A DNA stretch of 49,525 nt from Pseudomonadota bacterium (GTDB lineage Bacteria > Desulfobacterota > Desulfobulbia > Desulfobulbales > Desulfocapsaceae), in the NCBI GenBank assembly GCA_018817385.1, contig JAHIUA010000008.1:1-49525 (forward strand), in the 5' to 3' direction. Under the pieces are notes generated by a model. That model did not search any database and was not told where the DNA came from. It was given only the letters and a program-made list of their open reading frames with translations. Positions 33,577 through 37,443 of this stretch are shown here, piece by piece. A program made the translations under genes and the position numbers. How positions within the stretch are numbered: the first letter of the stretch is position 1; each line of letters starts with the position of its first letter.

Positions 33577-34032
33577 ATGAAAAAGATAGTTGCAGTGTCA
33601 GCTTTGGTTATCATGATTGGGTTGAGCGGAGTCTGTCAGGTTTCTGCAAATTGGGGGCCCGGTAATATGATGGGTGGAGGTTCAGCAAATTGTCCTCAGA
33701 ATAGAGGCCAGATAACTGCCCCCATGGATGCTGAAACCAAGGCCAAATTTGATAAGTTTTATGAAGAAACTCTTGATCTTCGTAAAGAGATTGTTGTGAA
33801 ACGTGCTGTGAAGCACGCATTGATGCGTGCTGAGCAACCTGATTCTGCAGCTATTGGCAAAGTAACCGGAGAGCTGTTTGATCTCCACAATGCCATGCGA
33901 ATAAAGGCACAGAAAGATGGTTTGCAGGGCTTTCGGGGAATGGGCCAATGCGAGGGCTGTTGTGATGATCCTGGTTGTCAGAATGGTTGTAGAGGGATGC
34001 GATGTGGGCAAGCTCTGATGGACAGCCAGTAA
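33577..34032 (+). CDS. ZraP/Spy-like periplasmic metal-stress protein
   Basis: The 151-residue protein has a signal peptide (KKIVAVSALVIMIGLSGVCQVSA, cleaved near residue 24), a Gly/Met/Asn segment (WGPGNMMGGGSANCP), a helical LTXXQ-like core (MDAETKAKFDKFYEETLDLRKEI) and a Cys-rich tail (CEGCCDDPGCQNGCRG and one more Cys). The core resembles ZraP, a zinc-binding periplasmic chaperone that modulates a two-component system. The seven or so Cys near the end are unusual and may bind metal. The ATG has AAGGGG 7 bases upstream. A sigma-54 promoter lies upstream and an intrinsic terminator downstream, so the gene is monocistronic. Only the tail of a ZraR-like regulator remains nearby. Confidence 0.82.
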   Translation: MKKIVAVSALVIMIGLSGVCQVSANWGPGNMMGGGSANCPQNRGQITAPMDAETKAKFDKFYEETLDLRKEIVVKRAVKHALMRAEQPDSAAIGKVTGELFDLHNAMRIKAQKDGLQGFRGMGQCEGCCDDPGCQNGCRGMRCGQALMDSQ

Positions 34033-34294: not shown

Positions 34295-34552
34295 GGGAAT
34301 GTGAGGGCGCATGAGTATTTCTTCCAATTTCTCATCACTCTGGTCCGCAGTAAGGGGATTCGTGTTGCAGATCTTCCCCCTGAAGTTCGTCAAAACCAGG
34401 TGAGTGGTGGAAACCTCATTCAGCGACTGGCAGAGGTAGAAAAGAAGATGCTCCTTCATGCCCTGGAAGAGTATGGTTGGGTGCAGACCCGAGTTGTAGA
34501 ATCTCTGGGAATCAGCGAAAAGGTTTTGCGATAGAAGATGGGGAGGTCTGGG
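34295..34552 (+). pseudogene. Remnant of a sigma-54-dependent response regulator (ZraR/NtrC type), C-terminal end
   Basis: From GNVR (the end of the AAA+ domain WPGNVRELEN motif, here GNVRAHEYF) the frame reads VRSKGIRVADLPPEV and the Fis-type DNA-binding domain LAEVEKKMLLHALEEYGW ... ESLGISEKVLR. A TAG at 34532-34534 replaces the tyrosine codon expected in VLRYKM, and the frame continues with KM after it. The receiver and nearly all of the AAA+ domain are missing, so it cannot activate sigma-54. It is probably the fossil of the regulator that once controlled the adjacent ZraP-like gene. Confidence 0.75.
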
Positions 34553-34651
34553 ATTGATCGGGATCATGATTGGTGTTTCAGGGCAGCGGCGACGGGTGGT
34601 GGGTTGGCGATGCGATAGATACAATATGTTGTGCCTTTGGCCCGGAAGTTC

Positions 34652-34680
34652 TTGACAGATAAGTATCGTTAGTATATTTT
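34652..34680 (+). promoter_or_regulatory. Sigma-70 promoter of the cobalamin riboswitch transcript
   Basis: TTGACA (34652-34657) is followed after 15-17 bases by TATATT/TATTTT (34673-34680). The predicted start point, near 34686, lies just before the first riboswitch helix, which supports the call. Confidence 0.65.
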
Positions 34681-34687
34681 TAAGCTG

Positions 34688-34905
34688 TATTCAGGTGTCT
34701 GTAACAGGACTGAAAAGGGAACTTCGTGAGAATCGAAGACGGGCCCGCCGCTGTAACCGAGGACAAATCCTGCATCCATGCCACTGACAGTTATTGAATA
34801 CCCTGGAAATGAATTGTTGTTTTTTTTATTCTAGCTGGGGTCAGAAATGCTGGTTGGGAAGGCGCAGAGGGAGAGTGATTCGGAAGTCAGAAGACCTGCC
34901 TGGAA
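34688..34905 (+). promoter_or_regulatory. Cobalamin (B12) riboswitch
   Basis: The conserved segments appear in order: TCAGGTG near the 5' end, AAAAGGGAAC, GAGAATCGAAGACGGGCCCG, CCGCTGTAACCGAGGAC (the B12 box core), GCCACTG, then after a variable loop GGGAAGGCGCAG, GAGTGATTCGGAAGTCAG and AGACCTGCCTG. This is a full-length aptamer of the cobalamin class and looks intact. An intrinsic terminator follows at 34971-35005, so control is probably by termination when cobalamin binds. No cobalamin transport or synthesis gene lies downstream. Confidence 0.92.
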
Positions 34906-34970
34906 ACTGAAGTGGTTGCCGTCGCGGAATATCGGTGATCAACTGATCTTGTGGATAAAAAAGGGAAATC

Positions 34971-35005
34971 CCCGGGTCTGAATATTTTTCGGCTCGGGCT
35001 TTTTT
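34971..35005 (+). terminator. Terminator of the riboswitch expression platform
   Basis: The arms CCCGGGTC and GGCTCGGG pair with two wobbles and are followed by a run of six T (35000-35005). It lies 65 bases downstream of the aptamer, the usual place for a termination switch. Confidence 0.7.
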
Positions 35006-35081
35006 GTTCCGGGCCATTGCTGGATTGTTAGGATTTGCATCCTGTGCAAGCAACAATCGCTTACCTGAGGAGGGTAGAACA

Positions 35082-35174
35082 ATGGTGTTACCTGAAAGGA
35101 GTTTGACAAAGTTGGTTTTTTGGCGTGTAACAGACTGGGATTCTTTCCAGAGAATCCTGCGTTACTTGCTGTAA
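35082..35174 (+). CDS. 30-codon ORF downstream of the cobalamin riboswitch
   Basis: The ORF encodes a 30-residue peptide (MVLPERSLTKLVFWRV at its start) and has a very good ribosome binding site, GAGGAGGG, 7 bases before the ATG. It is the only reading frame between the riboswitch terminator and the 3' end of the opposing feoB gene. The peptide has no known family and a basic-hydrophobic character. It may be a real small protein controlled by cobalamin, or what remains of a lost riboswitch-controlled gene. Confidence 0.4.
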   Translation: MVLPERSLTKLVFWRVTDWDSFQRILRYLL

Positions 35175-35180
35175 CATCGG

Positions 35181-35214
35181 AGGCCAAGTCTGCATTGTTG
35201 GGCAGGCTTGGCCT
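35181..35214. terminator. Hairpin between the riboswitch transcript and feoB
   Basis: Thirteen-base arms (AGGCCAAGTCTGC / GCAGGCTTGGCCT, one wobble) lie between the convergent small ORF and feoB. No T-run follows on either strand. It probably serves both transcripts as a weak terminator or 3'-end barrier. Confidence 0.5.
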
Positions 35215-35223
35215 CTTGCGGCA

Positions 35224-37443
35224 TTATCCCAGCATACTGCCTATCTGAAAAACAGCAACGGCGGCGAAAAAGGCAAAGGTCGTATTAAAAGCCATGGAGA
35301 AAAAGGCCCACTTCCAGGAGCCTGCTTCTTTGGCAATACAGACAACAGTGACAAAGCAGGGGGCATAAAACATGATGAAAATCAATACGGCCACTGCTAC
35401 GACACTGTTCCAATGCGGGTCTCTGACCAGCCGTTCGCCAAGAGAATCAGATACATCAACTTTCACTTCACCCATGGAGTAGGCAGTTCCTAGAGTGGAG
35501 ATGATCACCTCTTTAGCTGCAAATCCTCCAAGAAGGGCAATATTAGTCCGCCAGTCAAATCCGGCAAGGCTTGAGACCGGTTCAAGAAAGGTTCCGATTT
35601 TACCGGCAATGGAATATCGCAGGCCGGCTCCGGACTCCTGCTGATCTATAATGGTCAGTGCTTCTCTCAGTTGTTGTGCTTCTGGGGACAGTTTCCCTGC
35701 TTCCTCATTATGGGTGAGAAGTTCTGTCCTGATTGGTTGAGGATAACTCTGCCTTGTCACTGTCCGTTTTGCTTCAAAACTCTCTGATTGAGAGTCTGGA
35801 AGGCCTGGGTAGGTCATCAATGCCCAGAGAATAATAGAGATTCCCAAAATGACAGTTCCGGCTTTCTTGATATATTGCCAGGTCCGCTCCCAAGTATGGA
35901 TGAGAAGTCCTCTCAGGGTAGGAAAACGATAGGGCGGTAGTTCCATGACAAAGGGGGTCGCTTCCCCTTTGAGTACGGTCGTTCGTAAAAATTTGGCAAC
36001 CACAAGGGCGACCAGCCAGGCCAGCATGGTGAAAAGAAACATATAGAGTGCCTGATGATCGGTAAAGAATGCACCGATAAGCAGGACCAGGACAGGCACT
36101 TTCGCTCCACAGTTCATAAAGGGAACAGTGAGCAGGGTGGCCATGCGTTCTTTTGGTGAGCGTAGGGTTCTGGTAGCCATGACTCCAGGGACTGCGCAGC
36201 CGCCAGCTATTCCGCCAGATACGATAAAAGGCATTACCGAGGAGCCGTGGAGGCCAAAAATACGGAAAATTCGGTCCATCATAAAGGCAACTCGAGCCAG
36301 ATAACCGGAATCTTCGAGGATGGCAATTCCAAAGAACATGAACATGATAAGGGGAACAAAGCCTAACACACCGCCAACCCCATCAATAACCCCTGAGATG
36401 AGCATTGATTTAGCTGGTCCGTCAGGAAGAGTTGCATCTACTACTCCTCCCAGCCAGCCGAAAAATGACCCCATCAAGGAAACCGGCAGTTCACTCCAGG
36501 AAAAGGTGAACTGGTAAAGGCCAAAGAGGATGAGCAGCATGACAATTGGACCTATGAGGCGATTGGTGAGAACTTTATCAATTTTATCTGAGGCATAAAG
36601 ACGGTCTATATCAAACTTGTGGGACAAGACTCCCTGGCGGACAATGGATTTTATAAATCCGTAACGATGGTCAGCAATCATGGATTCCGGATATACGTCC
36701 ATGGTCTTGAGCAGATGGTCGGAAATGCTGGCCACCATCTGTTCGAGTTTTTGAGTTACGAGTGGATCAGCTTTCTGGCCCATGGCAAGAATCTGGTCGT
36801 CATGTTCGAGATATTTAATGGCGGTATAGTGAGGAGGGTAGGTTGTAATAAGAAATGAAGAGTCGGTGATGATAGAGACGAGCTCCATGAGTACCTCATC
36901 AAGATCATCTCCGTAGGAAATATCCTTTGGGCACCATATCTTTTCAGAATGGGCGACTTCAAGGGCCTGTTTGATTAACTCCTTTGTTCCTTCACCAGAC
37001 CTGGCAATGATGGGCACTATCTGAACACCGAGCAACTCTGCCAATTTTTCATAGCGAACTTCTATTCCTCGATCTTTTGCTACATCAATCATATTCAAAG
37101 CAATAATCAGAGGCACTCCCATTTCCAGGAACTGGGTTGTGAGGTAAAGGTTTCTTTCCAAATTAGAGGCATCAACAATGTTGATGACCACGTCAGGCCG
37201 ATTGGTGGTGAGAAAATCTCTGCTTACTATCTCTTCAACGGAATAAGCTGTCAGTGAGTAGGTCCCGGGAAGATCGGTAATAACGATTTCCTGGCCTTCA
37301 TAGGAAAAACGACCGATTTTATAGTCTACGGTAATCCCAGGGTAATTCCCAACATGCTGTCTGGCCCCGGTAAGTTCATTGAAGAGGGTGGTCTTGCCGG
37401 CATTCGGGTTGCCTGCTAATGCCATGGTAATGTGTTGTTTCAT
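35224..37443 (-). CDS. feoB: Ferrous iron transport protein FeoB
   Basis: The 739-residue product is FeoB, the inner-membrane Fe2+ importer. The N-terminal GTPase domain has G1 GNPNAGKTT (residues 11-19), the G2 region with YPGITVDYKIG, G3 DLPGTYSL and G4 NMID. The membrane part has the two Gate motifs, with GGIAGGCAVPGVMATRT in the first and GGFAAKEVIISTLGT in the second. The length is normal. It is the last gene of the minus-strand operon feoA, small Cys-rich membrane protein, feoB. An antisense transcript from the riboswitch promoter could reach its 3' end if the terminators are read through. Confidence 0.97.
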   Translation of the reverse strand: MKQHITMALAGNPNAGKTTLFNELTGARQHVGNYPGITVDYKIGRFSYEGQEIVITDLPGTYSLTAYSVEEIVSRDFLTTNRPDVVINIVDASNLERNLYLTTQFLEMGVPLIIALNMIDVAKDRGIEVRYEKLAELLGVQIVPIIARSGEGTKELIKQALEVAHSEKIWCPKDISYGDDLDEVLMELVSIITDSSFLITTYPPHYTAIKYLEHDDQILAMGQKADPLVTQKLEQMVASISDHLLKTMDVYPESMIADHRYGFIKSIVRQGVLSHKFDIDRLYASDKIDKVLTNRLIGPIVMLLILFGLYQFTFSWSELPVSLMGSFFGWLGGVVDATLPDGPAKSMLISGVIDGVGGVLGFVPLIMFMFFGIAILEDSGYLARVAFMMDRIFRIFGLHGSSVMPFIVSGGIAGGCAVPGVMATRTLRSPKERMATLLTVPFMNCGAKVPVLVLLIGAFFTDHQALYMFLFTMLAWLVALVVAKFLRTTVLKGEATPFVMELPPYRFPTLRGLLIHTWERTWQYIKKAGTVILGISIILWALMTYPGLPDSQSESFEAKRTVTRQSYPQPIRTELLTHNEEAGKLSPEAQQLREALTIIDQQESGAGLRYSIAGKIGTFLEPVSSLAGFDWRTNIALLGGFAAKEVIISTLGTAYSMGEVKVDVSDSLGERLVRDPHWNSVVAVAVLIFIMFYAPCFVTVVCIAKEAGSWKWAFFSMAFNTTFAFFAAVAVFQIGSMLG

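Follow-up and report, generated by a model that had tools for sequence, protein, structure and literature searches.

The window, i.e. the whole stretch of 49,525 nt that was analyzed, contains a locus at which a cobalamin riboswitch is followed by an open reading frame (ORF) of only 30 codons and by the end of the convergent gene feoB. The following features were assigned:

34620..34633, no strand assigned: near-palindrome TACAATATGTTGTG, candidate operator, 18 nt 5' of the -35 box
34652..34680, + strand: promoter of the sigma-70 type, TTGACA-17-TATTTT, by sequence pattern
34673-34678, + strand: TATATT, alternative -10 box of this promoter
34676..34917, + strand: cobalamin riboswitch aptamer RF00174, full length by covariance model
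34971..35005, + strand: intrinsic terminator of the expression platform, by sequence, fold and relatives
35067..35074, + strand: Shine-Dalgarno (SD) sequence GAGGAGGG; a purine-rich SD is also present in relatives
35082..35174, + strand: microprotein gene of 30 codons, MVLPERSLTKLVFWRVTDWDSFQRILRYLL, by conservation and in-frame pN/pS
35179..35216, no strand assigned: strong hairpin in the interval between the ORF and feoB, by fold energy; no T tract
stop at 35224, convergent: feoB, FeoB_N and FeoB_C by Pfam

The first-pass annotation, made from the sequence alone, had claimed a full aptamer, a sigma-70 promoter directly before it, a termination platform, the 30-codon ORF with its SD, a hairpin of 13 bp and the opposing end of feoB, and all of these elements were found again. 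The aptamer matches positions 1-189 of the RF00174 model with 103.7 bits and an E-value of 5.7e-25 (gathering score 31.5), and the TTGACA of the promoter is identical in 11/11 same-genus rows that reach it (12 rows aligned, of 16 loci in the genus). The terminator consists of a hairpin (34971-34998) followed by a C and six T, and it is found at the equivalent place in same-genus relatives. The ORF extends from the ATG at 35082 to the stop codon at 35172-35174, and in the window no long gene lies on the + strand between it and feoB. The hairpin behind the ORF comprises 15 pairs, including G-U pairs, and has a fold energy of -29.3 kcal/mol, compared to -15.1 +/- 2.5 kcal/mol for shuffled sequences (z -5.65); it is perhaps the shared 3' end of the transcripts of the ORF and of feoB. 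On the other side, the locus is adjoined by a gene for a Metal_resist (PF13801) protein whose N-terminus is signal-like (33577-34032, + strand). A Fis-family HTH (PF02954) is encoded by an ORF of 77 residues (34301-34534, + strand), which may be what is left of the C-terminus of a response regulator.

Besides RF00174, Rfam reported nothing in the window at its gathering threshold. The minimum free energy fold of the leader (34681-35012) is no stronger than those of shuffled sequences (z +1.17), and the identification of the riboswitch therefore depends on the match to the covariance model. The genome carries six cobalamin riboswitches, and the other five precede genes for a TonB-receptor plug protein, two CbiK proteins, a FecCD permease, and a ThiC-family protein. 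Some paralogues of ThiC synthesize the lower B12 ligand; the gene found here matches plain ThiC best in NCBIfam, and a BzaB-like model stays under the cut-off. Behind the TonB-receptor and CbiK riboswitches of the genome no such short ORF is present. At the loci of relatives, a simple scan detected terminator-like hairpins in the last 150 nt 5' of the ATG in 7/10 g1 loci (g1 being the genus of the window; f and g numbers are our handles for families and genera), 1/2 g9 loci, 7/13 g5 loci, where the matches are unlike the usual stem, 23/24 other f1 loci, 5/5 f12 g60 loci, and 22/23 loci with a TonB-dependent receptor.

The peptide was initially searched for in 144 relatives, and the better matches lay on contigs that also match the riboswitch DNA. 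Each of the 30 loci from this search that were read was assigned an ATG behind a purine-rich SD, as picked by scripts that favour an SD, and E5, K10, D18, W19, D20, and Q23 are shared in their alignment. A scan of genome contigs yielded 30 loci, two of which, in Patescibacteria (L091, L096), were left out as probably due to chance. When the class, which we take to be Desulfobulbia, was searched with a profile in all 257 genomes, 113 genomes had a match at E<=0.1; 110 of these were judged real and three were rejected (G104, G088, G067). Relatives of the peptide, with the core KDWDxFQxxMR, are thus present in 110/257 genomes and in 11/15 families, and the named loci include MAGs of Desulfocapsa, Desulfocapsaceae, Desulfobulbaceae, Desulfurivibrio, and Candidatus Desulfatifera. 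The conservation in relatives indicates that the ORF is not a chance frame, which its length of 30 codons by itself would have allowed; on these sequence grounds it is a real gene.

A cobalamin riboswitch lies on the same strand within 500 nt upstream of the peptide ORF, by our own count, in 108/110 genomes, in 107 of them detected by Rfam and in one (G256) by eye. Regarding the remaining two, the aptamer of G084 (L094) was recognized by a BLASTN match, without an Rfam scan, and the locus of G213 (L219), a weak member with an E-value of 0.0017, is cut off by a contig end. Because the matches were chosen by the peptide alone, this association is independent evidence. Viewed by batch, cmscan with RF00174 found the upstream riboswitch in 30/30 loci, 59/60 loci, 17/20 weak matches, and 3/6 class loci (L230, L231, L235). 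The seven loci without an Rfam riboswitch include two at contig ends (L135, L219) and one with a long insert (L210), in which the aptamer boxes are in order by eye. L135 is cut by the contig end, and its 5' half is found again in this genome, with a riboswitch, where a contig ends (L148). The other four peptide matches (L229, L232, L233, L234) lack a riboswitch and are regarded as chance; L232 is the second match in G084, a genome that also has a real copy. Two further second matches of 8-9 residues (G031:C1:2966244, G001:C222) were kept outside the locus set.

About half of the good genomes lack the peptide: among 148 high-quality genomes of the class 74 have a match, and two of these 74 were rejected. 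The genome of the window has one real match, and its extra matches, at E-values of 2.1 and 5.7, were taken as chance. Among 395 genomes of the phylum, some of which belong to the class, eight had a match at E<=0.01, two of them outside the class (E 0.005 and 0.0096). L183 and L184 were not counted, the former because it lacks both an SD and a riboswitch, the latter because the scan showed no likeness. In L183 (1501-1659) a 19-residue stretch, MTPVETSFDKTTLFRIQDW, resembles the peptide; judged by its sequence it would be a chance likeness or a remnant. All 24 genomes sampled among those without the peptide still have cobalamin riboswitches. Since half of the good class genomes lack the peptide and all of the sampled ones keep riboswitches, cobalamin control as such does not require the peptide.

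In an alignment of 83 rows, W19 and Q23 are invariant, and conservation is also high for D18 (82), D20 (82), E5 (81), R27 (77), and K10 (76), while residue 22 is F in 74 rows and Y in nine. This alignment leaves out L086, L092, and L095, which are the same genes as L117, L125, and L118, as well as L148 (contig end), L139 (identical in its letters to L138), and L168 (uncertain start). The selection acting on the ORF was characterized by comparing pN/pS in frame with pN/pS in the two shifted frames. As uncorrected difference counts with synonymous sites near saturation, which makes the ratios rough and leaves the frame contrast clear, the values are 0.281 versus 1.26 and 1.55 for the genus of the window (16 loci), 0.235 versus 1.36 and 1.35 for g5 (10 loci), 0.221 versus 1.31 and 1.30 for g14 (nine loci), 0.260 versus 1.74 and 2.15 for other loci (11 loci), and 0.551 versus 1.23 and 0.99 for the more divergent TonB-operon set (19 loci), in which the frame contrast is weakest. 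This clear frame contrast in the sequences argues for purifying selection at the amino acid level.

The protein of about 30 residues is probably cytoplasmic. None of the 83 sequences has a transmembrane segment (0/83 above 1.6 in a 19-residue Kyte-Doolittle window), and by this simple hydropathy measure a hydrophobic membrane microprotein or type I toxin was rejected. An AlphaFold2 model of modest confidence consists of one helix (pLDDT 74.6, pTM 0.27). The helical moment of hydrophobicity has a p-value of 0.02 over residues 17-30, and of 0.09 and 0.31 for two longer stretches; no face of the helix is favoured by conservation (p 0.14-0.44). A scan of 30 members against Pfam-A and NCBIfam revealed no significant family. 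The best Pfam matches, Hemocyanin_N (E 0.037, two members) and Knl1_RWD_C (E 0.11, one member), were taken as chance, and NCBIfam yielded nothing up to an E-value of 10. The same applies to a PDB profile search, which returned five distinct sequences, all of them ACTL6A with a stretch DWDSFQ (E 0.14-0.15), likewise taken as chance.

The genomic neighbourhood was tabulated for 84 loci, and ORFs of less than 70 codons were not counted as neighbours. In the family of the window, 38/49 loci have no co-directional gene of at least 70 codons that starts within 150 nt; nine have such a gene or a continuation into CbiK, and two end too soon. The convergent feoB is the next gene in 9/9 g1 loci besides the window and in 2/2 g9 loci, a convergent gene for a 4Fe-4S protein follows in 10/13 g5 loci, and a co-directional gene of the GFO/IDH family in 6/10 g14 loci. 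Directly behind the ORF, a canonical terminator was detected in 11/13 g5 loci (1/13 in shuffles), compared to 1/10 g1 loci, 0/2 g9 loci, 3/24 other f1 loci (2/24 in shuffles), 0/5 f12 loci, and 0/23 TonB loci. Because so few canonical terminators were found outside g5, the designation "monocistronic" is based there on the lack of any co-directional gene with at least 70 codons.

Two other arrangements place the ORF in front of genes for exported proteins. In 23/84 loci (families f3, f4, f5, f8, and one of f12) the next gene encodes a TonB-dependent receptor, and the stop codon of the ORF overlaps the start codon of the receptor gene in 19 of these 23 loci, by four bases in 17 and by one base in two. 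In several of these loci, the genes behind the receptor gene belong to clusters represented by TonB, ExbB, ExbD, and a periplasmic binding protein to which CbiZ is joined. Four genomes, from two families, have an ORF that continues in frame, past a hydrophobic segment, into the cobaltochelatase CbiK (PF06180), in each case on the - strand, namely in L223 (1835-2911), L224 (1633-2736), and L226 (1405-2514) of family f6 and in L154 (1-638) of family f1, which is cut by a contig end. In these continuations, no clear SD accompanies the start codons that lie ahead of the hydrophobic segment; L223 has an additional ATG behind the segment, which GGAGG precedes at a distance of two bases. Judged by sequence, the four continuations appear to be fusions, with separate starts possible in L223, L224, and L226. 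CbiK as an obligatory partner was rejected, because its presence does not track the peptide: it is found in 23/25 genomes chosen with the peptide versus 19/24 chosen without it. Furthermore, the two riboswitch-controlled CbiK genes in the genome of the window lack the peptide, and G102 and G142 have the peptide, while CbiK was not found in them.

A second layer of control is suggested by the near-palindrome TACAATATGTTGTG upstream of the promoter, which is probably an operator for a transcription factor and is treated here as a candidate. The best match to TACAATATATTGTA is located 17-21 nt before the -35 box in 13/13 same-genus loci examined, and 11/13 of them match in at least 10/14 letters, compared to 3.2% of shuffles. 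An activator centred at about -61 would bind at such a position. The exact pattern of operator, spacer, and TTGACA is present in 5/20 genomes of the genus, each time only at the microprotein gene, and never in the reversed control. In g5, 9/13 loci reach at least 10/14 letters (8.6% of shuffles), with a varying distance, and elsewhere this applies to 3/21 other f1 loci, 0/5 f12 loci, and 0/12 TonB loci. In the genome of the window, 122 operator sites with up to two mismatches versus 108 in the control do not allow a regulon to be read.

From the architecture, conservation, selection, and context, which are all read from the sequences, we infer both the regulation of the gene and an action of its product in trans. 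In line with the known behaviour of such leaders, the terminator would form when cobalamin is bound and transcription would stop near 35005, and under scarcity of cobalamin the polymerase would read through and the peptide would be made. The comparative context suggests that the peptide may act in trans in cobalamin acquisition or in tetrapyrrole/cobalt handling, and it might do so by binding a partner protein via W19, Q23, and the near-invariant E5, K10, D18, D20, F22, and R27. It is the position in TonB operons and the continuations into CbiK that point to cobalamin acquisition. We regard it as probable that the locus is a self-contained gene whose product, a protein of about 30 residues, is repressed by cobalamin, is made when B12 is short, and has a role in trans in the acquisition of cobalamin. 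A broader proposal is put forward tentatively, with slightly less than even chances of being correct: the peptides could form a dedicated family of cobalamin-starvation effectors, found so far only in this class and in the genus of the window under the double control of an operator and a B12 riboswitch, which would steer cobalamin uptake or cobalt insertion by direct contact, be it from a gene standing alone, from the first position of uptake operons, or as a built-in cytoplasmic head on exported CbiK.

The first-pass annotation had left three interpretations side by side, i.e. a cobalamin-controlled small protein, a small RNA that is possibly antisense to the 3' end of feoB, and a riboswitch that remained after a recent loss of its target. 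The small protein is strongly supported by its occurrence in 110 genomes, the frame-specific selection, and the riboswitch that accompanies it. A deletion scar, for which the lack of a long + strand gene before feoB could be quoted, has practically no probability left: same-genus relatives do not have a btuB-type gene downstream, feoB being next in 10/10 loci examined including the window (16 genomes of the genus carry the gene), and the ORF is under selection and conserved in lone as well as operon contexts, including those loci in which a TonB receptor, i.e. a btuB-type gene, follows. Very unlikely is also a cobalamin-controlled regulatory RNA, or an RNA antisense to the feoB 3' end, in which case the ORF would be incidental. 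It would agree with the constant convergent feoB in g1 and g9 and with the cobalamin riboswitches of Listeria that control non-coding RNAs (PMC8079631, in the parts available), but it is the codons that are constrained, the ORF ends short of feoB, the convergent gene differs in other genera, and Rfam found no other RNA family in the window at the gathering threshold.

Of greater weight, though unlikely, is a role as translational leader, in which translation of the short ORF opens the following gene for an exported protein, TonB receptor or CbiK, and is coupled to it, so that the peptide itself matters little and lone copies are leftovers. The stop/start overlaps in the TonB loci and the CbiK continuations would be explained in this way. 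However, the mostly lone sets show the strongest amino acid constraint (0.22-0.28) with the same conserved residues, and the genome of the window has its own TonB-receptor and CbiK riboswitches without such an ORF. An attenuator leader has its regulated gene directly 3' on the same strand; such a gene is absent in the window and in all nine other g1 loci, yet the TonB receptor takes this very position where it is the next gene. Small size and a short conserved core would also fit a secreted or modified, RiPP-like peptide precursor induced by B12 shortage. We hold such a precursor to be highly improbable, because no modification or export gene is evident beside the lone loci, some neighbour clusters of which were scanned with Pfam, and because a continuation into CbiK would be unexpected.

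The preferred reading, a cobalamin-repressed small protein acting in trans, resembles several known systems in part. Like other RF00174 riboswitches, that of the window has a full aptamer, a terminator platform, and a promoter just 5' of it; unlike them, its only product found in the genus is a 30-residue protein and not that of a gene for transport, synthesis, or an isoenzyme. AspocR and Rli55 of Listeria are non-coding RNAs under cobalamin riboswitches, and there, too, the riboswitch controls a trans-acting product instead of a metabolic gene behind it, according to the passages available (PMC8079631). Their products are RNAs, whereas the locus of the window is constrained on its codons. RNAs of this type are marked by an ANTAR element or an antisense target; in the window, Rfam reported RF00174 alone at its gathering threshold. 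A glutamine synthetase inactivating factor is under the control of a glutamine riboswitch. Passages on cyanobacteria describe PirA (51 residues) and the glutamine synthetase inactivating factors as small proteins that regulate metabolism via protein-protein contact (PMC8092223), a mode of action that is only proposed for the peptide of the window. The ligand and the organism are different, and these passages do not place PirA under a riboswitch (PMC8092223). Our literature search, by title and abstract start and with most subscription journals outside its range, found no paper that describes a protein of this kind, and the available parts of PMC2667541 contain nothing on one.

The locus thus shows that the conserved product under a cobalamin riboswitch can be a microprotein, of a size that ordinary annotation may overlook, and 110 genomes provide a motif that can be tested. 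Similar genes may lie concealed behind orphan riboswitches in other places. Sulfur bacteria split tetrapyrrole precursors between cobalamin and siroheme, and the discovery of a partner of the peptide could bring to light a further level of B12 economy in these organisms.

A few loci have unusual riboswitch arrangements. In L132 and L065 the microprotein ORF is located between two tandem cobalamin riboswitches. The aptamer of L210 (1060-1400), with its boxes in order, is interrupted by an insert of more than 100 nt and is not reported by Rfam at the gathering threshold. Inserts of about 170-180 nt that are alike by eye are present in L039 (about 1063-1257) and L046 (about 1706-1885), in G018 within the variable part of the aptamer and in G011 just after the aptamer; they look like a small mobile repeat. 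A group II intron match was found near the locus in L128 (4944-5025).
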